Shown piece after piece: positions 28,108-57,409 of a DNA stretch of 64,000 bases. The stretch covers positions 8,094,312 through 8,158,311 of the forward strand of contig NC_092675.1 in the NCBI RefSeq assembly GCF_964355755.1. The letters run 5' to 3'. The position numbers and the translations under genes are program-made. Source of the DNA: Antedon mediterranea. Lineage: Eukaryota > Echinodermata > Crinoidea > Comatulida > Antedonidae. The notes below the pieces were generated by a model. The model saw only the letters and a program-made list of their open reading frames with translations, was not told the origin of the DNA and did not search any database. Position 1 is the first letter of the stretch, and each line of letters begins with the position of its first letter.

Positions 28108-28165
28108 ATGGCCATCCTCAAAATATTTGTTTTGGTAATATTCTGTGTTTTTTCGGTTGTCAATG
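28108..28165 (+). CDS. Diverged signal-peptide exon
   Basis: An ATG opens MAILKIFVLVIFCVFSVVN, a typical hydrophobic signal peptide, and the exon ends in a good donor (AATG|GTAAGT) in phase 1. That is the same phase as the signal exons of the neighbouring EGF/CBM14 genes, so it could splice to the EGF exon at 31214. It does not share the MLLLKN sequence of the other copies. Only about 50 bases separate it from the truncated LINE at 28055, so its own promoter is not visible and may have been displaced. Whether it is used is unknown. Confidence 0.45.
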
Positions 28166-28748
28166 GTAAGTTTTTTTATTTTATAAGCATCATGTTACCG
28201 TGTAGTGTTGTGAGCTTAGTTACAATATGAATCGTAGACGAGGCGATGATGTTTGTCTTCCTTGACCCAAACGTGTGCCTCTATAGACCGGGCGCCCGGA
28301 AGATTTATTCATATGAAAAGATACAAAATGTTTGATGATGTAGTTAGGTGCGTATTAGGGCGAGATGCAATATTCGACATTGCTGCCGGGTCACAGCCTG
28401 TACATGGGGCCTGTGGGGATCATAACATAGGGGGGTAAAAATGCATTTTTTCATGTGAAGCGATACAAGGATAAACTTTTTTAGATATCATTCGCAGTGG
28501 GCTACTAATGATTACATCACCAATGACCACGCCCAAATGGGTTTATTCATGTGAAGCGATACAAGGTTGAATCTTTTTTAATAGCAGCAGTACATATTGG
28601 GGATGACAAAAACACCAATGACAGCAACTTTATCCTGTACATAAGCTCAGGCAGCAGTTTCCCTTTATTCGGCTATATACTCGGCGCGTATGTCGTCTTA
28701 TGGCGTTCAGCTTAGTTAGAAATACGTGATACGGACTCGGACTGACAA
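28166..28748. other. No gene seen; short repeated phrase
   Basis: The phrase TTTATTCATGTGAAGCGATA is repeated in variants at about 28303, 28447 and 28540. No exon recognised. Confidence 0.5.
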
Positions 28749-30041
28749 TCTATATATAAATTTACGTAAGGGCAAAAATCGGTAAATCGTGCGTTATTTC
28801 TAGAATGTTTACTCGATGGTATATAAAGTTGGTTCGTACTTTCGGTACTAATTTTAACCACCTGATGTAACCCTGTTTACTAATTAAATTGAGTTCGATT
28901 ATTAGTTATTGACGATTAAAACGAATTTAGGTTCAACGATTTGCCCCAAATAGGGGTGTTTTCCGATCGTGGTATACTTTGTCTAATGGATGTCAATTTG
29001 AAAAATACCCGCACACAATAATACGAGGACACTTCGCATTTTCCTATCTCCTCCTACGATAATTGTTTTTAATAGCTGAAAACCGGTTGAACAGTTCGAG
29101 TACAGCATCATAATGTTGAAGACAGGCCGATTTTCTTTAAAAAATGCTATTTTGATACATGTAATATACGTTTTTACAAATGTATTGATTTGTGATGAAT
29201 GGAACATTCCAAATTATTTGGTTTAACCATAGAGATATAGATTTAGATTTATGGGCCCCCTTGGAGAATAAACATAAATAGTATTGCAATGCTGTACAAT
29301 ACTGTTAAGGTATTAACCACTTTTGATCGCAATTTGAATCGCAAATTTCTTATTGTGAGTGTTGGTACTGTTAGATATAATATAAACAAATATACAAATA
29401 AACTTTATTACTGTGAGTGTGGGTAGGCCCTACTGTTAGATTATAAACATATAATATACAAATAAATAAACGTTATTACTGACAGTTGCTTCTCAACGTT
29501 TGTATTAATTAATAATTTAAAAATATATAAACGTACGTAGTGGTGTATCGTTACATGTACTTCACTATTTCAATCGACTATGACAGTGAGAGTTTTAACA
29601 AAGTATTAAATCGTAAATGTTTTACTGTATTTAGTGGTATATTATTTATAGGCCTATAAAACATTAAAAACAATATTTCGTAACTGAGTGGATAAGAATA
29701 TATTTTAAAATGTTTCCTCTTTGTACCTATCTTCTTCCCCCATACCTCAACCCTTAATGTTACATACAAAACACAAATTGGGTTTGTTTAAATGAGTCCA
29801 AATAAAAAAATTTGACTCATTTTGTTTCTCCCTCGGAAGTAATTCCTAGGGTGCTAATTTTAACTGACTACATAAATCATCGTGTATATTTATTCGTTTC
29901 TGTAAACGACAATGTATTATAGTCCTGCAGTACGTACATTTGAAATCTCCATTTTTTTCTCGCTGGAAAATACTGTGTATTCGAGAACCATCTGTGGGCA
30001 CGACCTAGATGGTACGCGAGCGAAGCGAGCGTGCCATCTAG
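28749..30041 (+). mobile_element. Non-autonomous Helitron, copy 1 (1293 bp)
   Basis: It starts TCTATATATAAATTTACG after a host A (28748). It ends with a hairpin (GATGGTACGCGAGCGAAGCG facing CGAGCGTGCCATC) and CTAG at 30038-30041, followed by host T. TC at the 5' end, a 3' hairpin plus CTAG, and insertion between A and T without duplication are the Helitron hallmarks. No Rep/helicase is inside. It is nearly identical to 39260-40553, which lies in the opposite orientation. Confidence 0.85.
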
Positions 30042-30264
30042 TAAAGAGAATTAACAGTAGAATGCTAAAACTATAAAGAGAGCAGTTGTTTCCTGTACCA
30101 AATCATCAAACATCAAACTCTTAGGAACTCGCCCAAAATGGGTTTATCCATGAAGTATGAATCATTTTTGAAAAAATGTGTTTTTTTTTCACTTTATCCG
30201 GTACACATCAGCTCAAATGCCCGAGGCTCCATTCGTGATCAACAATGTTGTATAAATTTTGTTG

Positions 30265-30748
30265 GAAAGTTTCCAAATTTGTAAATAACTATTCATTATT
30301 ATTCGTATAGATGTATTGGTATGGAGATTTTTCCGTGATTTTGTCGTAATATTTTACCTGGAAACCCATATTGTACCCAGATAATTGGTCTTTTACTTCA
30401 AAACATATTTTTAAGACGAATTGTTACAAAAGATATGCTATTCATTTGCTACCTTATTGTATAACTACCTTTTACCTACTGTAATTAACATATTTAGTGA
30501 CGTAAATAACGCAAGTAATATGTATAATAATACCATTAATAAAATCATTCTTCACACTTAAATGATTTATTATACCGTTTCCAAAAACGTAAATGCTTGC
30601 ATATGTCACATGTCTATCATTTTGGTTTTATATTTTTGCCACATATTGTTGTTGTAATACCTACCTGGAAACATAATAAAACGCCATTCACTCGTCCACA
30701 TTGATAAGTTTGATTCTCTTGATAAGTGACCTACAACTTACAAACAAG
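30265..30748 (+). repeat. Duplicated upstream (promoter) block, copy A, TATA deleted
   Basis: Matches 37210-37724 and 38920-39259 plus 40554-40722. The shared phrases include GGTATGGAGATTTTTCCGTG, TAACGCAAGTAATATGTATA and CACATATTGTTGTTGTAAT. The segment that holds TATAAAAGGAGCC in the other copies is missing here, between CCATTCACTC and TTGATAAGTT. Confidence 0.75.
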
Positions 30749-30856
30749 ATGTTACTCCTCAAGAACAGCATGTTCTTTCTTTTTGTAGTTATCGGAGCTG
30801 CTCATGTCCAAGCATTCCCGACGTTGTTTTTTAGTTATATATCTAATTTTAAATAA
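30749..30856 (+). pseudogene. Signal-peptide exon, copy A, donor lost
   Basis: The ATG opens MLLLKNSMFFLFVVIGAAHV then QAFP, close to the copies at 37725, 40723 and 57328. After GCATTCCC the sequence diverges: the CAAACTCAAA|GTAAGT donor is gone and the frame runs to a TAA at 30854. With its TATA segment also missing, this copy looks dead. It sits upstream of the broken EGF and CBM14 exons at 31214 and 31688. Confidence 0.7.
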
Positions 30857-31213
30857 GCTAATGTCTTTTATATGAATGAATTAACACATTTTATTAGATT
30901 TCAAATCCACAAATTAGTTTAAAGAATGTTTTGCTTGAAGTGAAATTTGAATCAGTGATTTTGCAGGATCACTATATGTTGTGTTTTGGAAGGTTGTTCC
31001 TTGTTTTAAGAGTTTCAAATTTAAATTTTAACAAATCAGTGTTTTTTTTTAAAGATTTTTATAGAATTTAGGCCTAAATTTTTAACGTAGAACTATAACT
31101 GTTAATAATGCTGTTGAAGTCTACCTGACAGTATTGTTCCTAGTAGTAGTTTATGATAATATGGTTATACATTTTCTTTAAATAATCGTGTCCATCTAAC
31201 TTTGCTAATTTAG

Positions 31214-31325
31214 ATATCAATGATTGTCTCCCGAACCCTTGCTTAAACCAGGGCATGTGTCGACGGTGTTAACACGTACGTCTGGCTATGTATGGCTGGA
31301 TACACTGGTTTAAACTGTCAAACAG
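31214..31325 (+). pseudogene. EGF-like exon with 2-bp deletion
   Basis: Acceptor TTTAG, then DINDCLPNPCLNQGMC. The frame then breaks and GVNTYVWLCMAGYTGLNCQT continues in another frame to a donor ACAG|GTAGG. The exon is 112 bp; intact EGF exons here are 114 bp, so two bases are missing. One conserved cysteine is Trp (YVWLC where YVCSC is usual). Splice sites survive. Confidence 0.75.
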
Positions 31326-31687
31326 GTAGGTGTTATAATAATGGATAACACAGTTCATTATAAAGATTGTGTGAAGTGTATAAAGTGAGTGTATTTTAAC
31401 TGAATTTGTGCATTTTATCGATTGGGTTAATTTTACTGTCCTGATTTTTATATAATACCGATTGTGTGCATTTTACCGACCTTATACAATTTACCGACTG
31501 TGTGTTTTAAAGATTGTTTAATTAAATTTACTCATTGTGTGTATTCTACCAATTGTGTGCATTTTACCGATTGTGTACAGCTTTACTGGCTGTGTACACT
31601 TTTCCGACATCATCGCACATTTCATTTTGTGGTGATTTAACGAAAAATAAACTAATAATTGTATCAAATACATATAAACAATACCTG

Positions 31688-32500
31688 TGTAGCAGGAAAT
31701 GTTTACAATCGGGCTTTCATGACGTGTACAGAAGCAACTAAAGTAAACGGGCCTTGTGGAGTCCCAATACAAGTAGATAGCCAATTCTGTTTCGACAAGA
31801 CTAATGGATATCACTACCATCCAACAGACTGTAATAGATTTTACCAATGTTACTGTTATTTATTGTGCTCTTGGAATGAATGATAACACTAAGTATTTCA
31901 CTAAGAAATCAGACCATGTGCTAATGTTCAGCCATCTTGTAGAACTCTTTTATTAGTCTCCAATCCAGTCGTTAAATTGCTAATATGAATATATTACATT
32001 ACTTCCTTCTTTTAAAATTGAGTCAAGTGATACAGGTATTGATTATAGTATGGCTATCTAACATAACATTCTAAAACTAAGTAACAATAAACATAATGAA
32101 TATAACAAAAACAAGATCTTCTACATTTAAATTAACTATATAATGATTACATCTTATTTCCCTTTTCCTTTCTCTCTCTTTACATCAGATGTGGTATCCA
32201 ACATCATGTGATTAGGAAGTATTATTTTAACCAATCGTCCAATTTTAACTTCATACTTTCTTGGACCTAATACCTTTATTACTATGCCATTTAGCCATTT
32301 GTCTTTTCCTTTACCTTGTGTTCTCATGTTTTTCACTTTTACTTTGTCTGACACTGAAAAGATTCTTTCTGATTGTGTTTTAGGATCTTTGTGTAGTTTT
32401 TGGCTATATTGTTTACATTCTATTCGTTCTCAAACCGATTGAATAATATCTTTTCTTCAATGGTGAAGACTATCCATCAAACGTACCTAGGTGTAATTAA
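31688..32500 (+). pseudogene. CBM14 (chitin-binding type 2) exon, split and decayed
   Basis: 31688-31860 encodes the C-terminal half of one CBM14 domain (TCVAGNVYNRAFMTCTE ... GPCGV) and the first half of a second (FCFDKTNGYHYHPTDCNRFY, then QCY). The frame then ends. The missing end reappears at 32452-32500 as FNGE, DYPSNVPRC and a stop. It closely resembles the intact exon at 53977-54173 but lacks some 18 bases. The 590-bp insertion between the halves contains a gypsy integrase relic. Confidence 0.75.
32154..32354 (-). pseudogene. Gypsy integrase C-terminal relic
   Basis: Minus strand: SDKVKVKNMRTQGKGKDKWL, then GIVIKVLGPRKYEVKIG and a downstream NHMMLD. That is the C-terminal GPxxYxV module of Ty3/gypsy integrases. 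It lies in the insertion that splits the CBM14 pseudo-exon and is far too short to be a gene. Confidence 0.6.
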
Positions 32501-32700
32501 TTGTCTCAAATATGTTTAAATTGCCAGTGGCATAGTAAATTTCAACAATGGATATTAAAATGTCCGATACTACGCTTTTAAGCGATTTTTACTAGCTGAT
32601 CCATATTTCATAATGGTATATAATTTATGTAATTATTAGCTGGATAGTTTTTCTGTGGCGAAAGCCCTATAATAATAAAGAAGTATAGATACATTAAGGT

Positions 32701-33060
32701 ATGTTGTATTGTAAATTAGTCAATCTATTAATACCTTAATGTTAGTTTGAATAATTTAAACTAAATTAATTTGTACAACCAAAGATTAAAACTTTTCGAA
32801 ATAAAGAGATGTTTATAATAAGGTGTTGCTTCTTATAATGCTATTCTATGACTAACTGGAAACAACCATCACATTTTGAAATGTTGTATTGTAAATTGTT
32901 CGATCTGTTAATACCTCAATGTATGTTAATTTGAATAATTTAAACTAAAATAATTTGTACAACCAAAGATTAAAACTTTTTGAAATAAAAAGATGTTGAT
33001 AATAATAATGGTGTTGCTTCTTTATGTTTTTCTATGACTAACTGGAAACAGCCATTACAT
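32701..33060 (+). repeat. 180-bp tandem duplication
   Basis: ATGTTGTATTGTAAATT starts both units (32701 and 32881). Shared phrases run to TATGACTAACTGGAAACA. The copies differ at several positions, so the duplication is old. Confidence 0.85.
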
Positions 33061-33564
33061 TTTAAAAAATTGTTAAATTTGCTATCGGACGGTGAGACTA
33101 CTATAACTACAGCCGATATATGGTTGGCCTATTGTTAAACTTTATAAATATATCAGTTTGGCATTTCAATTTAATGGGAATGGCAGTTTATAACAATAAT
33201 TTTCAGAGAATGTTTGGTGCAGCGAATTTTACATTTATTTTCGTGATTTTATTTCGGTAATATCTACATATTTGCATGCCATTGTTCATAACATTTCTGT
33301 AGGCCTAGATCAATTATATCATACCTAAACAATATGTTAGTTCAATTGGTCCAATACATCCTGGTATAGAATTCTTCAGCCAAGTTTCAAAGTTTGTATA
33401 TATAACATGTTACCTTATAACACACACATTATGTTATGGTCATAATATACTATATAATATAGCCTTTAATGTCTCGTATCAGTAAAATGGAGACAATTGT
33501 AGACCTACTGTAAATGTATTACAAAAAAAATGCTTTTGATTTGAGCACTGTTACCGAATAAATA
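33061..33564. other. No gene seen
   Basis: AT-rich DNA without recognisable exon or repeat boundary. Confidence 0.5.
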
Positions 33565-35938
33565 GATTCAGACACAATCGTACACAAACATTGCTTAATG
33601 CATACCTGGAAATAAAAAAAGAATATAAAACATTAATAAAAAATAAGAAATACAGCTATATTAAAAGATCACGTACAGAATTGATTAGATCATTAGGAGA
33701 AAAAAACTCCAAATCATTCTGGATTAAACTAAAACAAACAAAACCAAATTTTCCAAGTAACATATGTATTAATACATGGCGCACTCATTTCGAATCCTTA
33801 TTTCATATTGATGAAAATAGAGATAATCAAAATGTAGAAAGTATCATTAATGATGAACCTGCTGTAAATGAAAACGAACCTAACCTAAATAATGACATTA
33901 CAGTAGATGAGGTAATTCATGCCATTAAATCCCCAAAAAACAGGTAAATCACCTGGAATCGATGGATTATTACCAGAACTTTTTATACACTCATCTCAAA
34001 ATGTAATCAATCTAATAACAAAATTATATAATATAATTTATAATACAGGACAGTTTCCACAGCAATGGGCAACCAGCCTTATTGTCCCAATATTTAAAAA
34101 AGGTGACAAAGAACAACCAGAGAATTATAGAGGAATATCACTTATTCCTGTTTTTGCTAAAATTTTCTTACATATTATCAATAAAAGATTACAATTTTGG
34201 GCAGAAGACAATAACATTCTACATCAGGAACAAGCCGGTTTTAGAAAGGGGTTCAGAACATCGGATAATGTATTTATTCTTAACACAATCATTAATAAAT
34301 ACCTAGGAAAAAAACGTGGGAAAGTATATGTTGCTTTCATTGATTTTAAACGAGCCTTTGACTCCGTAGGACATCAATACCTTCACATAAAACTAAAAAA
34401 TTCAGGAGTAAAAGGAAAAATGTTAAACGTTATTAATTCAATGTACAATAAGTTATCAGCACATGTTAAGGTCGACGGCAATATTAGTAATTCTTTCAAA
34501 TGTCTAATAGGTATACAACAGGGTTCGCCACTCTCGTCCTTTTTATTTAATGTTTTTATTAATGATTTGAGTGAAACATTAAATGAGGAAGGCGACGAGC
34601 ATAGAATCCAAATAGGAAATCTAAAAATTAATCATTTACTCTATGCAGATGACCTTATGTTATTTGGTGATACCGTTTATGGTCTACAATATTATTTAAA
34701 CAAGTTATCTACCTATTGTACAAGATGGGAAGTAACTGTCAATGTTAACAAGAGTAATATTATGGTGTTTAAGAATGGTGGTAATCTTAACAAATTTGAA
34801 AAATGAAATTACAATGGAAATACAGTTGACATTGTCAAATCCTTTAAATATTTAGGAGTTGTTTTCAACTCAAATGGTAATTGGAATAAAGCCAAAGAAT
34901 ACAATTGTCAACAAGCTAATAAGGCTTTGTTCACATTAAAAGGATTGACCCATAGACGTTTTGGTAACCTCCAAGTTAATATATGGAACCATATATTTGA
35001 TGTTAAGATTATGCCAATCTTACTTTATGGTAGCGAAATATGGGGTTTAAATGATATATCAGTATTACAGAAAGTTCATCTAAGATTCTGTAAATACATT
35101 CTAGGAATAGGTAATTCTGCACCAAGTGTTGCAGTGAGAGGAGAATGTGGAAGATTCACTATCCAAATTCAAATTATCATTAATATAATTCGTTATTGGC
35201 TTAGAGTAATCCAAATGGATAATGACAAATTTATTAAACAATGTTATGATTTTCAATATAGAAAAGCTCAAAGAAATGAGCAATGTTGGGCCAATGACGT
35301 AAAACAAATACTATGCATAAATGGATTTGGTAACATATGATACTCACAACAGGTTAATAATATATATACTTTTATTTCAAATTTTAAACAAAGGCTTACA
35401 GACATTGAACGACAGAAATTCTACGAAGATACTAGGCTACACTCTAAGCTCCAATATTACAAGCACGTTAAATATAAGTTTGGGATTGAAGAATATCTAA
35501 CAAAAGTAACAAATTACAAACATAGACAAATTATGACTAAGATACGACTAGGAATTTTAGAATTAGAAATTGAAAAAGGAAGATGGAATTGTATAAATAG
35601 AAATGAAAGATTATGCAAATTATGTGCTTTACAATCAATTGAAGATGAATATCATTTCACTTTAGTTTGTCCATTTTATTCAGATATTAGAACTAAATAT
35701 ATGTTTTCCTTTTATACAAACAACCCAACTAAATTAAAATATATTTATCTTATGTCTGCCACGAATATTGATCTTATTGTTAAACTTGGAAAATATTTAT
35801 TTTTTTCATTTAAACGTAGAACAGAATTTTTAAACGCACTCAACTGATATTTATTTAACATGTATTACATTGTATATTATTTGGGCCAAAGGCCATATAT
35901 AATGTTTCTTGGATCTCCAAGAAAGAATGAATGAATAA
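33565..35938 (+). mobile_element. 5'-truncated LINE, plus strand
   Basis: Carries a linker, complete RT and C-terminal region. It ends with GGATCTCCAAGAAAGAATGA and ATGAATAATA repeats (about 35920-35938), a GAAT-type LINE tail. The endonuclease is absent, so the 5' end is lost. The clade was not assigned; the RT differs from the two other LINEs in the window. Confidence 0.8.
33591..35847 (+). pseudogene. LINE reverse transcriptase, nearly complete but frame-broken
   Basis: The fingers show KTGKSPGIDGLLPELFI, IVPIFKKGDKEQPENYRGIS and QAGFRKGFRTSDNVFIL. Motif A is AFIDFKRAFDSVGH, then GIQQGSPLSSFLFNVFINDL and the catalytic LLYADDLMLFGD. The thumb (KSFKYLGVVFNSNGNW, PILLYGSEIWGLND) follows after a stop at 34804. 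A last block (35533-35847) has GRWNCINRNERLCKLC and DEYHFTLVCPFY, the Cys/His region at the end of some LINE proteins. Frame changes lie at about 33940, 34804 and 35340. Confidence 0.85.
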
Positions 35939-36129
35939 TATATCCACACATTTGTGGTGTTGAAAATTTATTCAGAACTTCACATACAATATCACCTATA
36001 AAATATCACCTACTGTCTTGTACAATACCATAATTATTAATTACAGCTTACAACTGAATGCGTACTCTAATTGAAAGTTACTAAAGTTTTCAAAATATCC
36101 ACTCCATGTTTTAGTGTTTTTTACGCACC

Positions 36130-37105
36130 AATAATATATAAATAATGAATGTTTATGAGTAATGGTACAAATAATGGCATTTGGTGAATGATGAAAGGTC
36201 ATATGGAGAAATAGATATTTAGATGTTAATAATAATAATGAATACCGTAGCTCACGTTATAGGTTATTGAAATGATGCACATAAAGCGACTCCTTATTGT
36301 GGAAACTTTTCAAAGAACCTAAAAAATATATTGATGATTATTTCCATTTATTCAAATAAGTCTTTCGGTTTCATTGTTTGTGTTAAACTTATTGAACCTT
36401 CCTCTACATTCAAAAGTGTATACTTGGTTCAAGTAATACACTATTTAGCAAGTACCATACACACATTTTGCTTACAGCTAGTCATCATAAAATACATAAA
36501 ATGTTTTGACTTCCCGAGAGCTCTACCAAGGAATTATTAACTATTAATTATTATTAACATATTCAATAAAATGATAATAATAATATAATTGTTCACATCA
36601 TCGGTCGTTGACTTTACATATACAATATGGTATCGTGCTTAAAGTTGAAAATGACTCATATTGGTATTGAGCATTTAATCCTATTATGTCCATTTTATTG
36701 GAAAGTTTTAAAAGATCCAAATATGACTGACTTACTATTCATTTATTTGTATGATGTACGTGTTTTTTCTCATAGTGACATAGGTGGTTATTCACTTCAG
36801 AAGACGGATTCTTACAAAGAGTCTAATGCTGTTATTCTTCCTATCTTTATGTACAATAACCTTTTACCTATCAATGTATTTGTGAGATATTTGATAATAA
36901 TATAGAATCTATTCTTCTTTTTGTCGCATTGCTGTCATATTTAGGTATCATACGGTAATTATTAGTTTTCCATATATTTTATTTGTACTCCTTTACCTGG
37001 AAACATAATAAGAGGCCATTAACTCTTACTAAAAGACAAATCATAGTTATAATAATAAGGAGCCGATAATCTGGTTTCGCACAAATCTTTCCTGTTATTC
37101 TCTTG
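36130..37105 (+). repeat. Duplicated upstream block with a decayed promoter
   Basis: Matches 56400-57130, upstream of the signal exon at 57328 (shared: CCTAAAAAATATATTGATGA versus CCTAACAAATATATTGATGA; TCATAGTGACATAGGTGGTT). At 36997-37090 there is an extra promoter-like copy. CCTGGAAACATAATAAGAGG and CTAAAAGACA are followed by TTATAATAATAAGGAGCC instead of TTATAAAAGGAGCC. No signal exon follows it. Confidence 0.65.
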
Positions 37106-37599
37106 ATTTAACATAGAAGATATGTTCATGTTTGGTACTTACCGGTACTAATATTGTAAGCAATAATAATGCTAATCATAATATCACACGATAGGTTATT
37201 AACATGACATATATTGTATACAAATTGTTGGAAAGTTTCCAAATAACTATTCATTACTATTCATTATATATGTATATTGGTATGAAGATTTTTCCGTGAT
37301 TTTGTCGTAATATTTTACCGGGAAACCCATATTGTACCCAGATAGTTGGTCATTTACTTCAACACATATTTTGAAAACGAATTCTTACCAAAGAACCTGA
37401 TGCTGTTTTGTCTACTTTATTGTATAATTACCTTTTACCTACTGTAATAAACATATTTATTGACGCAAATAACGCAAGTAATATGTATAATAATACCATT
37501 AATAAATTATTGATTTATTATACCGTTTCCAAAAACGTGAATTTTTGCATATGTTACACGTCTATTATGTTGGGTTTTTTTTCCACATATTGTTGTTGT

Positions 37600-37724
37600 A
37601 ATCCCTACCTGGAAACATAATAAGAGGCCATTCACTCTACTAAAAGACGAATGGTTATAAAAGGAGCCGTTACTCTGGTATCGTACAAATTGATAAGTTT
37701 GATTCTCTACAACTTACAAACAAG
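37600..37724 (+). promoter_or_regulatory. Core promoter of signal exon B
   Basis: TATAAAAG at 37656-37663 lies about 70 bases upstream of the ATG. It sits in a block (GGCCATTCACTCTACTAAAA ... GGAGCCGTTACTCTGGTATC) repeated before the exons at 40723 and 57328. Conservation of this block between copies, together with the TATA spacing, supports a promoter. Confidence 0.65.
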
Positions 37725-37806
37725 ATGTTACTCCTCAAGAACCGCATGTTCGTTCTATTTGTAGTTATCGGAGTTGCTCATGTCCGAGCATTCCCTCAAA
37801 CTCAAA
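37725..37806 (+). CDS. Signal-peptide exon B
   Basis: Encodes MLLLKNRMFVLFVVIGVAHV, then RAFPQTQ, and ends AAACTCAAA|GTAAGT in phase 1. The hydrophobic core and V-R-A before Phe fit signal-peptidase cleavage. Immediately downstream there is only an EGF relic (38167), so this exon must splice to the EGF array from 44720 on, as an alternative first exon to 40723, or it is unused. The exon and ~280 bp of intron match the copy at 57328. Confidence 0.6.
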
Positions 37807-38166
37807 GTAAGTTCTGTGTATTTATTTTTCATTATGATACCATACCGCTACAGTCCAGACTAAGTATAGTTATTCCGTTATTACGACGTTTGGTGTTTTA
37901 GTTTAGCTCATTGGCAATAGTGCGATTTAAACTTGTAAAATTGTAATATCAATAGGAATTGCTCTATGGTATCAATTACGATAGTTGATTTACTGTAATT
38001 GTCTTTAAAATTTAATTTTAGTTTCTTGTTTGCTTATAAATATTATTTGTTTATAGTTCCTTGACTTAAAGAGACAGTGAACCTCTATAACTCACAATCT
38101 AAAAATCACAATAATCTAAATTAACCTTCCGTCTGTCTAAAATGTGTATAATATTAACATATATAT

Positions 38167-38220: not shown

Positions 38221-38919
38221 ATGAGTAGAACCAGCTTCCAGCATTAAATGTTAAAAATATGTTTATATTACTCAATAATTAATGATAATTATTAATAAAT
38301 TAATAGAAAACTAGAGAGGGCACTTTTCGATCAGAAAATGAATGTTTTTTATGTGCGTTATAATTCCGCTCGAGTTTATTCAATGTACTGTAATGTACAC
38401 TGTTATACTATTCTATTGGGAAGTAATTATTTTTGTGTGGATCTTCTTGGAGTTGTTTGAAAGCGTATCCACTTACTTCTTTTCTTCAGAAAACATCTAA
38501 TTTAGGTCTTAAAGTGACCCCTATACACCTCACACAACCAACTTCCAACGTGGCATATTCTGCCCACACACACTTCATCTCTCCTGAACTAACATAGTAC
38601 AGTATAAGTCAAAGTAATTGTTTTAAATTTTAAACAACCTGCCTCAAAAAATATTATATAATAGTAACAATAACAGAAAGGTAGATAGGTATTGTAATAA
38701 TTTTTAAATTTAAAAATGAAAAAAAAAACTGAATAAATGTTTATACATACATTATAAATGAAATAAAATAACTACTATTTTAGTAATGCATACACAAGTA
38801 CTGTGCTACAGACAGTGTACCGTGTGTTAAAAGTACAGCATTTATAGCAGACAGCAACGTGTATAACTTGCTATAGTTTTACAGATAGCACCTAGGGACA
38901 GTAGCAGAATCTGGTGAAA
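38221..38919. other. No gene seen
   Basis: AT-rich intronic or intergenic DNA, no exon recognised. Confidence 0.5.
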
Positions 38920-39259
38920 GTTTCCAAACTTGCAAATAACTTTTCCTTACTCTTCATTATATCTATGTATTGGTATGGAGATTTTTCCGTGATTTTATCG
39001 TAATCTTTTACCTGGAAACCAATTTTATGCCCAGATAGTTGGTCATTTACTTCAACACATATTTTGAAGACGAATTCTTACAAAAGAGCCTGATGCTGTT
39101 TTGTCTACCTTATTGTATAATGCCCTTTTACCTACTGTAATAAACATATTTAGTGACGGAAATAACGCAAGTAATATATATAATAATGTCATTAATAGAA
39201 TCATTCTTCACACTTAAATGATTTATTATACCGTTCCCAAACAACGTTAATTCTTACTA
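38920..39259 (+). repeat. Duplicated upstream block, copy C, interrupted by a Helitron
   Basis: Parallel to 37210-37560. It stops at 39259, where the Helitron begins, and resumes at 40554 with ATGTCTATTATGTT. The uninterrupted paralogue (about 37540-37580) shows the empty site. Confidence 0.8.
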
Positions 39260-40553
39260 CTAGATGGCACGCTCGCTTCGCTCGCGTACCATCTAGGTCG
39301 TGCCCACAGATGGTTCTCGAATACACAGTATTTTCCAGCGAGAAAAAAATGGAGATTTCAAATGTACGTACTGCAGGACTATAATACATTGTCGTTTACA
39401 GAAACGAATAAATATACACGATGATTTATGTAGTCAGTTAAAATTAGCACCCTGGGAATTACTTCCGAGGGAGAAACAAAATGAGTCAAATTTTTTTATT
39501 TGGACTCATTTAAACAAACCCAATTTGAGTTTTGTATGTAACATTAAGGGTTGAGGTATGGGGGAAGAAGATAGGTACAAAGAGGAAACATTTTAAAATA
39601 TATTCTTATCCACTCAGTAACGAAATATTGTTTTTAATGTTTTATAGGCCTATAAATAATATACCACTAAATACAGTAAAACATTTACGATTTAATACTT
39701 TGTTAAAACTCTCACTGTCATAGTCGATTGAAATAGTGAAGTACATGTAACGATACACCACTACGTACGTTTATATATTTTTAAATTATTAATTAATACA
39801 AACGTTGAGAAGCAACTGTCAGTAATAACGTTTATTTATTTGTATATTATATGTTTATAATCTAACAGTAGGGCCTACCCACACTCACAGTAATAAAGTT
39901 TATTTGTATATTTGTTTATATTATATCTAACAGTACCAACACTCACAATAAGAAATTTGCGATTCAAATTGCGATCAAAAGTGGTTAATACCTTAACAGT
40001 ATTGTACAGCATTGCAATACTATTTATGTTTATTCTCCAAGGGGGCCCATAAATCTAAATCTATACCTCTATGGTTAAACCAAATAATTTGGAATGTTCC
40101 ATTCATCACAAATAAATACATTTGTAAAAACGTATATTACATGTATCAAAATAGCATTTTTTTAAAGAAAATCGGCCTGTCTTCAACATTATGATGCTGT
40201 ACTCGAACTGTTCAACCGGTTTTCAGCTATTAAAAACAATTATCGTAGGAGGAGATAGGAAAATGCGAAGTGTCCTCGTATTATTGTGTGCGGGTATTTT
40301 TCAAATTGACATCCATTAGACAGTGTATACCACGATCGGAAAACACCCCTATTTGGGGCAAATCGTTGAACCTAAATTCGTTTTAATCATCAATAACTAA
40401 TAATCGAACTCAATTTAATTAGTAAACAGGGTTACATCAGGTGGTTAAAATTAGTACCGAAAGTACGAACCAACTTTATATACCATCGAGTAAACATTCT
40501 AGAAATAACGCACGATTTTCCGATTTTTGCCCTTACGTAAATTTATATATAGA
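39260..40553 (-). mobile_element. Non-autonomous Helitron, copy 2 (1294 bp)
   Basis: Inverted relative to copy 1: it starts CTAGATGGCACGCTCGCTTC (the 3' end of the Helitron) after host A. It ends AAATTTATATATAGA before host T. It is almost identical to 28749-30041, with single differences in stretches compared by eye. It lies about 170 bases upstream of the signal exon at 40723, so it moved the distal promoter block away from the TATA box by 1.3 kb. Confidence 0.85.
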
Positions 40554-40722
40554 TAATGTCTATTATGTTGCCACATATTGTTGTTGTAATCCCTACCTGG
40601 CATAATAAAACGCCATTCACTCTACTAAAAGACGAATGGTTATAAAAGGAGCCGTTACTCTAGTATGGTACAAATTAATAAGTTTGATTCTCTTGATAAG
40701 TGACCTACAACTAACAAACAAG
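40554..40722 (+). promoter_or_regulatory. Core promoter of signal exon C
   Basis: TATAAAAG at 40641-40648, about 75 bases before the ATG, in the same conserved block as at 37656 and 57246. A small deletion (CCTGGCATAATAAAA instead of CCTGGAAACATAATAA) marks this copy. Confidence 0.65.
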
Positions 40723-40804
40723 ATGTTACTCCTCAAGAACAGCCTGTTCTTTCTTTTTGTAGTTATCAGAGTTGCTCATGTCCGAAAATTCCCTCAAACT
40801 CAAC
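40723..40804 (+). CDS. Signal-peptide exon C
   Basis: Encodes MLLLKNSLFFLFVVIRVAHV, then RKFPQTQ, 27 codons plus one base, phase 1. Two features suggest drift. The Ala expected at the cleavage site (VRA before FP in the other copies) is Lys here. The donor is GTAAAT rather than GTAAGT. It is the nearest signal exon upstream of the EGF array 44720-49370 and can be joined in frame to it. Product: leader of a secreted EGF/CBM14 protein, if used. Confidence 0.55.
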
Positions 40805-41029
40805 GTAAATTTTGTGTATTTATTTTCTATTATGATATCATACTTTTCAAGACTAAGAATAGTTATGTCGTTATTACGATGTTTTGTGTTCAGCTTAAAT
40901 GCAATAGTGCCAATTACAATATCAATAGGAGGTGATTTATGGTATCACACGTGGAGATGAGGCACACTCGTTGATATCTGAAACAATGCATATACATGGC
41001 TGCAATCGCGTGCTCAAGTTAGTGTTTAC

Positions 41030-44712: not shown

Positions 44713-44719
44713 TTTGCAG

Positions 44720-44833
44720 ATATTGATGAATGTACAACCAACCCATGTTTGAATGGAGCTACTTGCTTTAACTTCGGTGGTGGCTATGTTTGTAGCTGCG
44801 TTCCAGGCTACATCGGTACTGATTGTGAAACAG
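44720..44833 (+). CDS. EGF-like exon (calcium-binding type)
   Basis: Acceptor TTTGCAG, donor ACAG|GTACAT, 114 bp, phase 1 on both sides. Reads [20 protein letters not shown] then [19 protein letters not shown]: six cysteines in the EGF order, with the D-x-D-E and N...Y signature of calcium-binding EGF. A Helitron ends seven bases upstream, so the polypyrimidine and branch region of this acceptor lies in transposon sequence. Confidence 0.85.
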
Positions 44834-45281: not shown

Positions 45282-45415
<134 letters not shown>

Positions 45416-45695: not shown

Positions 45696-45809
45696 ATGCT
45701 GATGATTGTTCTCCAACCCCATGTCAACATGGAGGGCAATGTACAGACTTTGTCGGTGGTTATTTGTGCACATGCATTGCTGGGTTTATTGGTCAAAACT
45801 GTGATACAA
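45696..45809 (+). CDS. EGF-like exon
   Basis: Acceptor GTTAAG, donor ACAA|GTAAGT, 114 bp, phase 1/1. Reads DADDCSPTPCQHGGQCTDFV then GGYLCTCIAGFIGQNCDT, six cysteines, calcium-binding type. Very similar to the exon at 45934, which suggests a recent exon duplication. Confidence 0.85.
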
Positions 45810-45933: not shown

Positions 45934-46047
45934 ATGTCAATGATTGTTCTCCAAACCCATGTTTGAATGGTGGTCAATGTACAGACTTGATTAATGATTA
46001 TAATTGTTCATGCCAAATGGGGTATTCAGGGAGGAATTGTGAAACAA
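45934..46047 (+). CDS. EGF-like exon
   Basis: Acceptor TTTATAG, donor ACAA|GTGAGT, 114 bp, phase 1/1. Reads DVNDCSPNPCLNGGQCTDLI then NDYNCSCQMGYSGRNCET, six cysteines. Its last bases and donor are part of a 113-bp tandem duplication (46042-46267), so a second identical donor lies 113 bases downstream. Confidence 0.85.
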
Positions 46048-46267: not shown

Positions 46268-46270
46268 TCA

Positions 46271-49248: not shown

Positions 49249-49370
49249 ATATTGATGATTGCTTTGGAAATCCATGTGTAAATGGGCAATGTTTTGATTT
49301 GGTTGGTGGTTATGTTTGTTCTTGTTTCCAGGGCTATACAGGAATCAACTGTGACAACATACTTAAGTAA
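49249..49370 (+). CDS. EGF-like exon with in-frame stop
   Basis: Acceptor TTTTTTTTAG, then DIDDCFGNPCVNGQCFDLVG and GYVCSCFQGYTGINCDN: six cysteines and calcium-binding signature. Where the donor is expected (after TGTGACA) there is no GT. The frame continues ILK and stops at TAA (49368-49370), and a GTAAGC lies 13 bases further on. Inclusion would end the protein without CBM14. Skipping keeps frame because all neighbours are phase 1. It may be a truncating alternative last exon or a dying exon. Confidence 0.65.
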
Positions 49371-49464
49371 AACAAAAGTAAGCAATCTGTATAAACTATA
49401 CAATACGTAAAGATAAGATATAGTACAACTTTCAATTTTATTTATACATTGTATAATAATATAC
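49371..49464. other. Intron start after the optional EGF exon
   Basis: No feature recognised apart from a possible donor AAAA|GTAAGC at 49380. Confidence 0.4.
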
Positions 49465-51020: not shown

Positions 51021-51655
51021 AGTTTACACGTTGATAATGCCATGTAAGTTCCAATCAGGTGGCTATTTCACACACCAGTAGCCGTTGTATATAACATTCC
51101 ACGCATTATTTCTGTAACCGTCCTTCTTTTCTTTAACGTCTTTCTTTAATGTCTCCAATTCAATGGTGTGTCGTACTAGTAGTAAGTTTTTCCTTTCCGT
51201 CTCGTTCAATTCCAATATCGTTACTATTCTGTACTCACAAGTGTTCTGGTTGCCAGAGTCCTTTAGTTATAAATCCAATTAGTCAATCCGTTCTTCAATG
51301 TAGCCTACCACTCAATTAACAGTCGTAAAAAGAGACCTCAGATTAGAAATTAAGGAGTTATTTATTACACGACTACAATATCGCTGAAGTGTGCATCAAA
51401 TATCTATATCTCTTACTTTGTGGTTTTCTTTATTTTCTCTGCTTAGCAACTTATCAATACAACAATAGTAGTTTGCCACACCCAATCAAGAAATGCAACA
51501 CTCAGCTTACTCCCAACTCCTTGTTTCAACCTCGCGCCGTTCCCGCACACACTTTATATACCAACCCATCATCCAATAAGAGGCCGCTACGCATGAATGA
51601 CCCCCCTCATACAGTACAATGAAACAAAAATTAAATCACTTGTGACAGTTATACC

Positions 51656-52054
51656 TTGCTGACAATTCTGTGTACAATCAAAATAAATATTTACGCCACC
51701 AACGTCAAAGTTCGAAATCCGAAACAACCAAGTCTAAAATTAAAATGCCAGATTAACACCACACGGGGACACGACATTATCAAAAAAGCGGAACGTAGTT
51801 TGATTAGAGAAAGAATACGAATCACTACAAACAGCATCGAAAAATTAGCTAAGAAAGAGGAAGAACTAAAAGAGAAAATAGTTGAAATAATCACCGATGA
51901 CACAGCTCGAGCGGACGTTGACAGAATGCGAGAGAAAAGCGAATCCCCATATAGGGATTCACCCAGAGGTATTCAAGTAATCACTCAGAGATGGCGCATG
52001 TCACATCAACATCACGTGACTATGCCCATGATCAGTGTCGGAAAATCAAGCTGA
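51656..52054 (+). pseudogene. Retroelement ORF N-terminal fragment
   Basis: Encodes a basic region PKQPSLKLKCQIN, then DIIKKAERSLIRERIRITTN and a charged helix KLAKKEEELKEKIVEII. This pattern resembles the region N-terminal to RT in Penelope-like elements. It runs straight into the right terminal repeat and stops, without RT or endonuclease. Identification is by resemblance only. Confidence 0.4.
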
Positions 52055-52139
52055 CACCACTACCTTGAAAAAGTGCGATGCTAACGCACGAAACGTTGGT
52101 AAGTTCAACGTTAATTTTTACCTTCACTAAAAACCAATT

Positions 52140-53640
52140 TTTAGTCGCGTGGAAGCGACTCTATAGTTCACTATGTCGGTCGGTCGGTCTGTCTGTCTGT
52201 CTGTCGGTCTGTCTGTCTGTCTGTCGGTCCGGTATCACTATGCGTTTTATCGCTTTATGACCTTATCTTGATATCAGTTTACTCTAGCTAAGTCAATTTT
52301 TCACAGAATATTCCTTATGGCCAGGAATCGATGTGGTTATGTTTTCACGGTGCGCAATAAAAAATTACGCGGTCTACGCACGATTTAACGAAATCACGTT
52401 TGTAATTATTATCTTAACAACCATGAATCACAATTAAATAAAATTTGGTACTCATAAATTTCAGGGCATAAATCATCATATGGCAATACAATTACGTGCG
52501 TAGCGCATGTAACGCATGCGTACGCGCGCTTAAAATTTTAAAAATTTATTTTCGATGAAATAAGAGTACGTTTCAGGCAATTTTAAGCGTTTACAAAATT
52601 GCCATGAGTGCGCAGATTTTTGCGCGCGCACTGCGCGTTAAATGTTATTGCGCACTCTTTTTGCCCGATTTCTGTTTTCTTGACTTACTTTTCAACTCGA
52701 AATTACGTTATACGAGCACGTCAAAAGTGACAGGCTACGCACGTGTAAATTAAAAAAATATAAATGTTTTTAAACATTTCAACATTTTTAAACATGTTCA
52801 GTAATTTCGGTCAGTATAGTTCACTATGTCGGTCGGTCCGTCTGTCTGTCGGTCTGTCTGTCTGTCTGTCGGTCTGTTTGTCTGTCGGTCCGGTATCACT
52901 ATGCATTGTAGCACGCGACTTAATGGCTGTTGGCCTTGTTTTCAATTCGGTCGGTCGGTCTGTCGGTCGGTCTGTCGGTCTGTCTGTCGGTCCGGTATCA
53001 CTATGCGTTTTATCGCTTTCTGATATCAGTTTAATCTAGCTAAGTCAATTTTTCACAGTATATTCCTTATGGCCAGGAAATCGATGTGGTTATGTTTTCA
53101 CGGTGCGCAATAAAAAAATTACGTGGTCTACGCACGATTTAACGAAATCACGTTTGTAATCATATCTTCACAACCATAAATCACAATTAAATAAAATTTG
53201 GTACTCATAAATGTCAGGGCATAAATCATCATATGGCATTACAATTACGTGCGTAGCCAATGTAACGCATGCGTACGCGCGCTTAAAATTTTCAAAATTT
53301 ATTTTCGATGAAATAAGAGTACGTTTCAGGCAATTTTAAGTGTTTACAAAATTGCCATGAGTGCGCATATTTTTGCGCGCGCACTGCGCGTTAAATGTTA
53401 TTGCGCACTCTTTTTGCCCGATTTCTCTGTTTTCTTGACTTACTTTTCAACTCGAAATTACGTTATACGAACACGTCAAAAGTGACAGGCTACGCACGTG
53501 TAAATTTAAAAAATATAGATATTTTTAAACATTTCAACATTTTTAAACATGGTCAGTAATTTCGGTCAGTTGGTAGGTTGGTCGGTCGGTCGGTGAAAAC
53601 TAATGAGCACGCGACTGCAGCCATCTACATGGCCTTGTTA
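52140..53640. repeat. Repeat block: 753-bp tandem pair with GGTCTGTC runs
   Basis: Two long units share CTAGCTAAGTCAATTTTTCA (52283 and 53036), GTAACGCATGCGTACGCGCG and TTGCGCGCGCACTGCGCGTT. Each is preceded by a run of CGGTCGGT/CTGTCTGT words and GGTATCACTATGCGTTTT. The block begins AGTCGCGTGG and ends CACGCGACT. Reading frames rich in SVCLSV come from the runs and are not genes. Confidence 0.8.
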
Positions 53641-53976
53641 CTAATATTAAGACAAAACTCCGTCTGGAACACAAACTATATTGGAAGTATAATATCAGTT
53701 AGACTCTATTTTATTTATTTAAAAACCATATACGTGGTTACAGCATACCAGGTATAGATATTAAACTGTTTTACATTATGGTCCTGTTTTTAACAGCAAT
53801 ATAGAAACCGGCAGAATTTGGTGGTAATTACATTGGTCTACGATTTTTTCATCCCCATTTAACTTATTAATTAATCTTTCAATTACCCACACTTGTCTTA
53901 CATTAATAATCTTTTTTTTCTTTCTTAAACATATCAAATGATATACTACTATCTTCCAATTCTTTTTTACCTTTAG
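53641..53976. other. Intron before the CBM14 exon
   Basis: No feature beyond a pyrimidine-rich acceptor (TTTTTTACCTTTAG) at its end. Confidence 0.6.
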
Positions 53977-54173
53977 GCCTAGATCAATTCTGTTCCAACA
54001 AGACTGATGGATACTACTACTACCATCCAACAGACTGTAATCTTTATTACCAATGTTACCAAGGTACAACATACCTTAAAACATGTCAGACTGGACTTGT
54101 ATTCAATGGTGAAGTGACACCTGTAAGGTGTGACTATCCATCAAACGTACCTAGGTGTAGAGACTACGAGTAA
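53977..54173 (+). CDS. Terminal CBM14 (chitin-binding type 2) exon
   Basis: Enters in phase 1 and ends at TAA 54171. Reads DQFCSNKTDGYYYYPTDCNL, then YYQCYQGTTYLKTCQTGLVF and VRCDYPSNVPRC: six cysteines with the C-x-Y-x-P-x-C-x5-C spacing of peritrophin-A/CBM14 domains, plus the aromatic residues used for chitin contact. It ends four residues later, so it is a C-terminal domain of a secreted protein. Its nearest relative in the window is the split pseudo-exon at 31688-32500. Polyadenylation signals follow at 54349 and 54360. Confidence 0.85.
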
Positions 54174-54348
54174 AATTCAATAATAGTATTCATTAAATAT
54201 TTCAAATAGGGTAATACTACTATACCTACACTAATTCATTAATTACGTAACTGTTCCAGTTTATATTATTGTTGGTAGTGATTTAGGTTTAATAATGATT
54301 TAAATAATTTCTCTTATTACTGTGGTTGTTAATACAGTAAATATTCAC

Positions 54349-54365
54349 AATAAATATCGAATAAA
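54349..54365 (+). terminator. Polyadenylation signals
   Basis: Two AATAAA hexamers (54349 and 54360), 175-190 bases after the stop codon of the CBM14 exon. Confidence 0.6.
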
Positions 54366-54500
54366 GTATGTTAACGTTTAAAGATGTATTGTATCCCCCT
54401 AAAAACCAATAATGTGTTTGTTTGAATATTTTAATGTCACATAATAGTTATTCATTCGCCTAAAAAATATTATTTACCTGAAAAATGTAATTTAAAGCAA

Positions 54501-54676
54501 AACAAGGCCAACAGCCATAAGTCGCGTGCTAAAACGCATAGTGATACCGGACCGACAGACAGACCGACAGACCAACCGACCGACATAGTGAACTATAGAG
54601 TCGCGTCTGTCGGTCTGTCGGTCGGTCCGGTATCACTATGCGTTTTAGCACGCGACTTATGGCTGTTGGCCTTGTT
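54501..54676. repeat. Palindromic AGTCGCGTGC repeat, perfect 56-bp arms
   Basis: 54501-54556 (AACAAGGCCAACAGCCATAA ...) is the exact reverse complement of 54621-54676, with a 64-base spacer containing GACAGACC runs and CATAGTGAACTATAGAGTCG. Confidence 0.9.
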
Positions 54677-54679
54677 ATC

Positions 54680-56290
54680 TATGGACGTGATTTACTTTAT
54701 CAAAACAAAATGACCTATATTATTCAGTGTTAATATATGTTTTGGTATCGGAAAATGTCATAGTTTACATACATTAAATACACTAATTTTGATAGCTAAA
54801 CGATTTATATTCAACTGTAACATTTCAGAAGACCCACTGTATCTATATATAAATTATGGTTCATTCTGACATAGGCGAGCAAAATGCAAAAACTTCAGCG
54901 GTACAAATCTCCGCCTTGGATACCTACCTGATCTATCTCAGATGTACCGCGAAACGTAGATTTGATAACATTAGTTTTCACATCGATGCTATTGTTCCAT
55001 ATTTCTATTTTAGGAAGATATTATAAAGTTTTTAAACAAAATTTATGATTTCAACAGTAGATTTTCAACTCAATTTCAATTCTTCGCGGGTCTAAGTAAT
55101 TTCTGGGTTCACCTGCAACAACCTGGTTTCAACTATTTTCTCTCTTTTATAAACAAGGGAGCAGTTAAAATAATAGATTTGACCCTAAAGGTAACTGGAA
55201 ACAGGCACTTTCCATCATCAATCAATACAGTGTCCCTAGGGACTCCCTTTGGAAGAAGGAAGAAACGATAGTAAGACTAGAGCTTAAGGCCCTGTTAAGA
55301 CCCATGGCGTTAGACCGTTTTAGCGTACAATGTTACTATCAAGGTCACGTTACAAACCGCAGAGAAAAAAAACGAGGTGTTCTGACCCATAGCGTACGAT
55401 TATCGTCAACGGAAAGTATGTCATCCAGGTTGTTTCTAGTTGGATATTCATGTGCTCTTACCCACGTGTTTTCATCATTATTTCCACTGTATATAGGCCT
55501 AGATCTCAGCCCTACAATTATGACAAAATTTGCCGTAAATAAAACATACCTCATCATTTATTTAAGAAAAATATAGTAAAGCCAAATTTCTGTTTCTATT
55601 GTTACGGCTCTTGTGTTACGAAAATATAGCAGGCCTCGAAGAAAAAAATGATTGTGATTAGTCTATCCAGTCCAGTCAAAGATATATATTCTTTGGTCCA
55701 GTCGGTTGAAAATAACCCTTAACTTGCTAATAAAAGGGACACAGCTCCCCTGGCCGCGATTTTTTTTTTTCGTACAAAAGTTGGGGACCCCCCTCATGAA
55801 ACGTCACAAAATAAACATGAATGTGCACCCAAGCGTATAGCAACAAGAAGTGATTACACAAGTGCGGTACGATTCTAGGCCTATCTCCGCGCTGTTGTTG
55901 CGGCGTCCGATTTCATAGAAGAATAGCGGCGATTTGTGTGGATTGTCGAAATAATCAGCTTTTAGTTTATGATAGTGTTTTTAATATAATTTATTAATAC
56001 TATTAGGCCTAGGCCTAATTATTAGTCTCTAAACATATGTCTATTCTAGTAGAGCTGTGTGTGTGTGTTATAGGTATGACACAATCCGAGTAATAAGTCA
56101 GCAAAATTAAACAATAAACATTACACAAAAATACATTTTTTATTCTCGTGGGTCTAATCTTCCCATCTCATGTGTATATACGCGCATTTTTAAAGTTCCT
56201 TTGAGTACATGCATTGTTTGATAATAAAATAGCAGAATTAAAAAAAATACAGTACACAAATTATACACATTAATACCGTTCTGATGATTA
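54680..56290. other. Intergenic; no gene seen
   Basis: Contains an isolated TCTATATATAAATTATGG at 54842, similar to the Helitron 5' end but without a partner end, and otherwise no recognisable exon. Confidence 0.5.
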
Positions 56291-56292
56291 AC

Positions 56293-56337
56293 GAAGGTGA
56301 CCATATCCTAAAGTTTTCAACTTATTTGGTCACCTTC
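56293..56337. repeat. Hairpin (GAAGGTGACCATAT)
   Basis: GAAGGTGACCATAT (56293) faces ATTTGGTCACCTTC (56324), 14-base arms with one mismatch. Confidence 0.75.
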
Positions 56338-56437
56338 CACACTCATCATACTTTTTTTAATATCTAAATATTTAAGTAAAATGTATATTGATATGTGTGG
56401 AAAAGAATTAATAAACAAACAAACAATGGTACAAAAA

Positions 56438-56503
56438 ATGGCATTTGGTGAATGATGAATTATATGAAGATATTATAACCTTTCATCATTCACCAAATGC
56501 CAT
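56438..56503. repeat. Perfect 21-bp hairpin in the upstream block
   Basis: ATGGCATTTGGTGAATGATG and its exact mirror (56438-56458, 56483-56503) enclose 24 bases. The paralogous block at 36170 has only the left arm, so the hairpin arose by an inverted duplication in this copy. Confidence 0.9.
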
Positions 56504-57245
56504 GACAGGAATCTATTTAGATGTTAGTATAATAATGAAAAGCTCACGTTATAGGTTATTGACATGATACACATAAAACCGACTCCTTATTGTGGAAACT
56601 TTTCAAAGAACCTAACAAATATATTGATGATTATATCCCTTTATTCAAATAAGTCTTCAGGTTTCATTTTTTGTGTTAAACTTATTGAACCTTCCACTGC
56701 ATTCAAAAGTGTATACTTGGTTCAAGTAATACACTATTTAGCAAATAGCTTGCAATAATTTTACTTATAGCTATAGTTATCATAAAATACATAAAAGGTT
56801 TAGTCTTGGTATTAAGCATTTAATCCTATTATATCCATTTTATTGGAAAGTTTTAAAAGATCCAAATATGACTATTCTTACTACTCATTTATTTGTATGA
56901 TGTCCGTGTTTTTTTCTCATAGTGACATAGGTGGTTGGTTATTCACTTGAGAAGACGAATTCTTACAAAAGAGTCTAATGCTGTTATTCTTCCTATTTTA
57001 TTGTACAATAACCTTTTACCTATCAATATATTTGTGAGTTATTTGATAATAATATAGAATCTATTCTTCTTTTGTCGCATTGCTGTCATATATTGGTTTC
57101 ATAATTATTAGTTTTCCATATATATGTGCTGTACTCACTTACCTGTAAACATAATAAGGTTTTATATTTTTTCCACATATTGTTGTTGTAATACCTACCT
57201 TAAAACATAATAATAGGCCATTCACTCTACTAAAAGACGAATTGT

Positions 57246-57327
57246 TATAAAAGGAGCCGTTATTCTGGTATCGTACAAATTGATAAGTTTGATTCTCTTG
57301 ATAAAGGACATACCACTTACAAACAAG
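57246..57327 (+). promoter_or_regulatory. Core promoter of signal exon D
   Basis: TATAAAAG at 57246-57253 in the block CTAAAAGACGAATTGTTATA ... GGAGCCGTTATTCTGGTATC shared with the promoters at 37656 and 40641. The ATG follows about 75 bases later. Confidence 0.65.
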
Positions 57328-57409
57328 ATGTTACTCCTCAAGAACAGCCTGTTATTTTTTTTTGTAGTTATCAGAGTTGCTCATGTCCGAGCATTCCCTC
57401 AAACTCAAA
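57328..57409 (+). CDS. Signal-peptide exon D
   Basis: Encodes MLLLKNSLLFFFVVIRVAHV, then RAFPQTQ, with donor CAAA|GTAAGT, 27 codons plus one base. Cleavage after VRA is likely. A TATA box lies 75 bases upstream and the first intron begins with the same ~280 bases as after the exon at 37725. The best-preserved copy of the cassette, and the one followed by intact downstream exons. Confidence 0.8.

Follow-up and report, generated by a model that had tools for sequence, protein, structure and literature searches.

Background

Exon shuffling of phase-1 extracellular modules is a known general process, usually inferred from old genes, and partial duplication is known to yield chimeric gene duplicates in which an old head acquires new downstream exons. 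A further parallel is provided by frog skin peptide genes, for which Kuchler, Kreil and Sures reportedly described a homologous export exon in 1989, i.e., one signal-peptide exon common to genes with different secreted products. A similar sharing is seen in and around a 64,000-nucleotide stretch of the Antedon mediterranea genome (C6:8094312-8158311, below called the window; the assembly comprises 354 Mb in 18 contigs), where copies of one promoter-leader head precede different EGF and CBM14 exon sets. These copies probably belong to a tandem cluster of secreted EGF/CBM14 genes, in which heads and tails have been conserved and middles exchanged or lost. In such genes the head would consist of the 5′ flank, a TATA promoter, the signal-peptide exon and the start of intron 1, and the tail of the last CBM14 exon with the 3′ flank.

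In contrast to the frog export exon, the head takes in a promoter as well as part of intron 1, the bodies are EGF/CBM14 modules made up of several exons, and the tails are common too. As in phase-1 exon shuffling, the junctions between leader, EGF, and CBM14 exons are in phase 1; here, however, several steps are visible at the DNA level in one cluster with identifiable source genes. Phase-1 exon shuffling and shared export exons are established examples of this kind of arrangement. The unusual feature is a single locus in which heads, tails, sources, and several products remain alignable, plus one case across chromosomes, so that the steps could be ordered and tested; the cluster would represent close-range exon shuffling. 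Should the heads be active, many binding modules would come under one expression programme with no new regulatory evolution. Compared with chimeric gene duplicates (review PMC3449122), one head recurs here with several bodies, at one locus and on another chromosome. In the open-licence PMC literature no paper on a gene family combining EGF and CBM14/chitin-binding domains was found, which is not proof that the family is undescribed.

Leader heads in the window and in the genome

All positions are window coordinates, with negative values and values above 64000 denoting the C6 flank outside the window. Contigs C5 and C2 are always written with positions, and C2 as a head name refers to the class C copy at 85494.

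According to a leader search allowing 3 mismatches, the leader start ATGTTACTCCTCAAGAAC occurs exactly at 30749, 37725, 40723, and 57328, all on the forward strand (4 matches with 0 mismatches; the chance level from shuffles averages 0.09). This agrees with a sequence-only reading of the window, which had proposed a full cassette at each of these places, including about 280 bp of common intron. The intron part of that proposal holds for 37725 and 57328 (the match extends to +361/+375 from the ATG, with a leader exon of 82 bp) and fails for 40723, which has only ~95-170 bp in common with 57328 and 37725. As for 30749, it is not a full cassette: a gap of ~50 bp stands in the alignment where the other copies read TATAAAA, and there is neither a donor nor a common intron, since the copy leaves the alignment at +71, within the leader (AFP), and so has no QTQ/GT phase-1 donor and reads into a stop.

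The leader exons with phase-1 donors in the window, all on the forward strand, are A3 (37725-37806, MLLLKNRMFVLFVVIGVAHVRAFPQTQ, donor GTAAGT), B1 (40723-40804, MLLLKNSLFFLFVVIRVAHVRKFPQTQ, GTAAAT), and A4 (57328-57409, MLLLKNSLLFFFVVIRVAHVRAFPQTQ, GTAAGT). Class C head C1 (30245-30819, forward, leader from 30749, no TATA, no donor) is an upstream block with a truncated leader, and the upstream part of head B1 (38916-39255, forward) is separated from its leader by an insertion. The promoter-like copy without a leader exon, reported earlier as a fifth copy, is genuine (36966-37086, forward, 82% identical to 37579-37690). Self-alignment of the blocks, which had been suggested as a check, reveals similarity far above chance (37577-38085 with 57167-57702 at 90%, 40568-40900 with 57170-57508 at 87%, 30245-30819 with 37211-37795 at 80%, and 37535-37974 with 40535-40947 at 78%); the borders vary, and the block at 40723 is split. 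In summary of their state, 30749 is a damaged head, 40723 the head of a gene with a lost donor, and 57328 the head of an intact modelled gene, the only one in the window.

Whole-genome DNA and protein searches list 12 heads, which is a lower bound since the best candidates alone were scored. Eleven of them lie on one strand of C6 within 216 kb: A1 to A6 at -24642, -16102, 37725, 57328, 101174, and 191383, B1 to B3 at 40723, 103566, and 164750, and C1 and C2 at 30749 and 85494. The remaining one, B4, is located on C5 at 19663216. The protein search reports 11 leader matches, 9 across all 27 residues and 2 (30749 and 85494) across residues 1-25, and misses B2 (103566), which is broken by an 11-bp deletion. 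A thirteenth place, 163179-163356, contains only the intron part of an A head and was left out of the count. Judged by eye on the alignment, the TATA segment is present in 11 of the 12 heads (all except C1), the donor at the leader end in 10 (all except C1 and C2), and a leader frame unbroken to AFP in 11 (all except B2); the three occur together in 9 heads. Overall, the heads are ~74-97% alike in DNA. The signal peptide of the leader exon is predicted from a scan for hydrophobicity and splice donors.

Unit of duplication

The same head stands before different module sets, as the sequence-only reading had it, and none of the 6 pairs of window heads share downstream exons; in the two pairs led by 37725 this follows from the set-up of the comparison, as no exon is listed there. 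Collinear chains were computed for 66 head pairs over at most 10 kb on each side (9 kb for C5). Exons are listed behind the first-named head in 51 pairs, of which 3 share them and 48 do not; the other 15, led by A3, A5, or B2, lack listed exons and are uninformative on this point (the exons behind A5 and on C5, found later, were absent from the list used). The pairs that share whole genes are A1-A4 (-24642/57328), B1-B3 (40723/164750), and C1-C2 (30749/85494), i.e., full gene duplication accounts for 3 of the 51 informative pairs.

Between most other heads homology ends within or just before intron 1. Among the 15 A-A pairs, 6 have a right limit at +361 to +389 from the ATG and 7 have further scattered pieces; the exceptions are A1-A4, with a chain through the whole gene, and A3-A5. 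For the 24 A-B pairs, the limit is +157 to +260 in 17, and additional pieces follow in 7. Pairing C1 or C2 with an A or B head (20 pairs) gives a limit of +71 in 18 cases and of +45 in the 2 that involve B2.

On the left side the copies extend further. Seven inter-gene intervals, trimmed to start near the preceding gene's last CBM14 stretch (the left limit is therefore partly imposed), show collinear matches in 21/21 pairs. The next leader exon is reached in 15 of these, and the 6 others, all involving the interval before 164750, reach only the next leader's intron. In 14 pairs, but not in 7, the chain takes in 70 bp or more of the CBM14 exon that ends the preceding gene. The longest run leads from the last CBM14 exon (-30757, 31679, and 88758) through intergenic DNA to the leader and intron 1 (-24276, 38088, and 101537), and the chain between A1 (-24642) and A5 (101174) begins in the same exon in the trimmed intervals. 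The A1-A3 chain also stops in that CBM14 exon (-30757 and 31679) when 10 kb are allowed. The order of the copied block is accordingly the preceding gene's last CBM14 exon, intergenic DNA, promoter, leader, and ~285 bp of intron. Chains spanning the CBM14 exon to intron 1 therefore define a shared unit that runs tail to head and ends inside genes. Two such blocks lie on the forward strand of the window. The first, with insertions, extends from the CBM14 remnant to the start of A3 intron 1 (31679-38128) and is collinear with the DNA before -24642 and 101174. The second, from the interval comparison, extends from the B1 CBM14 exon to leader A4 (53985-57702), and from 54299 on it is 96%, 93%, and 91% identical to pieces of -20317 to -15740.

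These results do not support the claim that the cassette alone was copied, as 30749, 40723, and 57328 each have a whole-gene partner outside the window and the A1/A3 chain begins inside the preceding gene's last CBM14 exon. Movement of the promoter-leader block as a unit, e.g., in a mobile element, to places before existing modules is accordingly quite improbable. It would agree with the end of homology in or before intron 1 between most classes and with the C5 copy, ~1.56 kb long, behind which no cluster-type EGF/CBM14 exon was found. However, 11/11 C6 copies share one strand and one stretch, the preceding CBM14 exon is included in the 14 interval pairs mentioned, the inspected borders have no common element ends, and a 1.3-kb element interrupts the B1 block and does not carry it. 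At best, copying of the cassette alone fits the C5 copy only. Capture by a mobile element was also considered and rejected: visual inspection of the borders on C5, in three B copies, on the left of C2 and A2, and on the right of six A copies revealed no constant ends, and the chain borders differ between classes.

An assembly artefact, in which uncollapsed haplotypes were set in tandem, is very improbable. In its favour are copies at ~94-97% identity and the partial recurrence of 30245-55288 downstream (8,477 of its 25,044 bases are collinear with one later stretch at 94.6%, and 11,219 with another at 96.1%). Nevertheless, there are more than two copies, similarity between classes is often only 74-90%, and bodies and insertions differ among copies.

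The tandem gene cluster explains the arrangement better. Unequal crossing-over, segmental duplication, and deletion, breaking within introns and inserted elements, would have produced its copies; the same strand, the tail-to-head blocks, some whole-gene copies, and the swapped middles all fit these processes. One head would then precede different binding modules because the tandem cluster apparently keeps recombining inside genes.

Gene bodies and their sources

EGF/CBM14 exon scans bear out the earlier observation that different exon sets follow the copies. The A1 and A4 models contain 2 EGF exons followed by a four-CBM14 exon, and are open (362 aa) with GT/AG splice ends. In A4, the EGF exons are located at 58645-58764 and 58889-59002, and the last exon, with four CBM14 domains and the stop, at 61604-62376 (all forward; model and Pfam). 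The B3 model is also open, with 5 EGF exons and 1 CBM14 exon (275 aa). B1 has the same exon set on the forward strand: EGF exons 1-4 at 44720-44833, 45283-45378, 45696-45809, and 45934-46047, all phase 1-1, the fifth at 49249-49362, where TTAAGT replaces the partner's donor GTAAGT and an in-frame stop follows soon, and a single-domain CBM14 exon at 53977-54170 (exon scan and model). A2 has one EGF exon and one two-CBM14 exon with plausible splice sites, the model covering the EGF exon, and A6 a CBM14-like stretch with losses. Behind both C1 and C2 there are one EGF exon and a CBM14 remnant. In C1 the EGF exon is decayed and frame-shifted (31214-31325, forward; intact relative at 85966-86079), and the remnant (31677-31850, forward) matches the last CBM14 stretch of upstream gene 2. 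According to a Pfam scan of three models (A4, B3, and A2) with curated cut-offs, PF01607 (CBM_14) and PF00008 (EGF) exceed the cut-off in A4 and B3, and PF00008 in A2. Genome-wide, there are at least 85 CBM14 matches.

For A3 (37725) the exon scan found nothing up to the next leader, B1, and for B2 it found none before the A5 exons. Neighbouring leaders such as 37725 and 40723 might be alternative promoters and first exons of one gene with the same EGF exons, an explanation that we consider unlikely. It would account for the TATA, open leader, and donor at 37725 without an EGF/CBM14 exon before 40723, and for the A-B doublet 37725/40723, which is found again at 101174/103566 and, reduced to an intron remnant of A, ahead of 164750. 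On the other hand, the leaders are nearly identical, so that little would be gained, 164750 has lost the A leader in front of it, and at 103566 the B leader is broken.

The bodies match gene 1 or gene 2, or belong to a third EGF type. Gene 1 (-65786 to about -46260) and gene 2 (-38603 to -30484) are upstream EGF/CBM14 exon series, each taken as one large gene. EGF exons of B1/B3 match gene 1 (for B3, 90% over 912 bp and 79% over 580 bp), EGF and CBM14 exons of A1/A4 match gene 2 (for A1, 88.5% over 846 bp and 99% over 775 bp), the EGF exon of C1/C2 has its match in an exon of gene 1, and for the tails of classes B and C the match is the last gene-2 CBM14. In A1/A4, the intron that precedes a gene-2 EGF exon now leads into the interior of a CBM14 stretch, and TTTCCAG/AA at that place offers a phase-1 acceptor that is presumably used in splicing.

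The 775-bp CBM14 stretch is ~99% identical in three genes (61597-62371, -31977 to -31203, and -22601 to -21827), and the stretch beside it is only ~88.5% alike between gene 2 and A1/A4; this contrast suggests gene conversion or a later partial copy. The gene 2 leader (-39791, MLYLKHSPVFLCAIFAV...) was tried as the cassette ancestor and rejected: the protein resemblance is weak (E 4.2), and DNA matches are short, the best one (29 bp, E 9e-5) lying at the cassette edge outside the leader. As for gene 1, a donor and hydrophobicity scan of the 10 kb before its first EGF exon gave no leader candidate.

The third type is represented by A5, which is followed by six EGF-like exons of another type (109264-110801), all in phase. 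Its leader is the only match of the signal-peptide and donor scan between 101000 and 109278.

The head on C5

Head B4 (C5:19663216) has a TATA, an open leader, and a GTAAGT donor. An EGF-like series begins 7.4 kb downstream on the same strand (C5:19670741-19677217) and turns into a tandem array with a period of ~278 bp (C5:19671839-19677217), in which 18 of 19 exons have a phase-keeping donor. A close copy of this array, also with a ~278-bp period, is located at C2:15126646-15130956, and the C5 array corresponds to the middle of the C2 EGF-exon series (15123889 onward), with pieces 87-93% alike. In a comparison with 20 kb of this C2 region, homology to C5 starts at C2:15123889, a short repeat aside; upstream of this point C2 has further EGF-like exons, whereas on C5 the place is taken by a retroelement frame, beyond which lies the leader. 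No convincing leader relative was found in those 20 kb of C2 (best E 0.046). The A5 exons on C6 are of the same general type as those on C5 and C2 (at the positions above), with proteins only ~47-50% alike, and no DNA similarity between the A5 and C5 arrays was found at E 1e-8. A candidate feature of the C5 and C2 arrays, GC-AG introns, was dropped after a recount on C5 (GTAAGT in 16/19, GCAAGT in 2/19, and neither in 1/19).

According to this layout, a head of the C6 cluster and a relative of part of a gene in this C2 region stand together on C5. The C5 copy would be an ectopic duplication of the head, upstream of a 5′-truncated relative of the C2 EGF series, and the head possibly drives the downstream array. 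A broader reading, which we hold only tentatively, is that the promoter-leader head serves as a reusable gene starter, placed in one animal lineage, across chromosomes as well, before EGF or CBM14 arrays of varied origin and giving a co-regulated set of chimeric secreted binders. A5 (101174) and the C5 leader would then be two separate cases before a distinct EGF type.

Phase and selection

The predicted signal peptide lies on a separate phase-1 exon, and module exons are flanked by phase-1 introns on both sides in the A1, A4, B3, and A5 models; one splice-site search imposed phase 1 and hence is no test of phase. With the leader and modelled EGF exons in phase 1, new junctions keep the frame. 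Since leader, EGF, and CBM14 exons meet in this phase, joining intron 1 to almost any later intron would give an open secreted protein under the same promoter.

Plain tandem duplication of whole genes followed by decay, with no functional mosaics and most leaders relics, is rather unlikely, albeit less so than alternative first exons. It is consistent with the three whole-gene pairs, the damage in C1, C2, B2, and B1, and the B1/B3 exon differences (3 synonymous and 5 nonsynonymous over 110 and 421 sites), which are too few to tell whether selection acts. In contrast, at least two open gene types (A1/A4 and B3) stand under the same head with bodies from different source genes, and the A1/A4 exons differ at 6 synonymous and 3 nonsynonymous positions over 192 and 780 sites, which fits purifying selection. 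Special constraint on the promoter, suggested by lower group means, was dropped, as the upstream and intron columns include sequence beyond the breakpoints.

Several observations weigh against the tandem cluster with exchanged middles. Heads C1, C2, and B2 are damaged, and A3 has no body within reach. Among the 39 A-A and A-B pairs, 14 have scattered collinear pieces past intron 1 with no exons shared, the A3-A5 match runs to about +5 kb, and inserted elements conceal many true breakpoints. Some of the 95-98% copies could be mimicked by uncollapsed haplotypes, and splicing may never take place across the 7.4 kb on C5 or the 8 kb behind A5. Finally, pooling the nine intact leaders (B2, C1, and C2 left out) gives pN 0.056 and pS 0.054, and with pN close to pS the leader shows no evidence of amino-acid constraint; recent copying or gene conversion may account for its similarity. 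For frog skin peptide genes, PMC3731216 reports purifying selection on the signal-peptide region, which differs from the present leader, where none is seen.

Other elements

The range of the sequence-only reading started at 28108, which is not a cassette copy. A different signal-peptide-like exon, MAILKIFVLVIFCVFSVVN/GTAAGT with a phase-1 donor, is located there (28108-28165, forward), and no second copy of it was found in the 270 kb examined.

The insertion in the B1 5′ flank is mobile-element-like and 1.3 kb long (39259-40554, forward), with a 99% identical inverted copy at 28748-30055 and partial copies elsewhere in the cluster. It ends TC...CTAG between A and T and has a terminal hairpin, a form that we take to be Helitron-like. 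According to the list of open reading frames, LTR-retroelement-like frames occupy 12658-17147 (forward), with an integrase-like frame (14453-15625) before a reverse-transcriptase-like one (15577-17147); the proteins presumably are Gypsy-like, and the integrase-first order recalls, as we assume, the Gmr1 type. In the C6 flank, 129165-132049 is a tandem array with a period of ~183 bp and stops in all six frames of the translated stretch.

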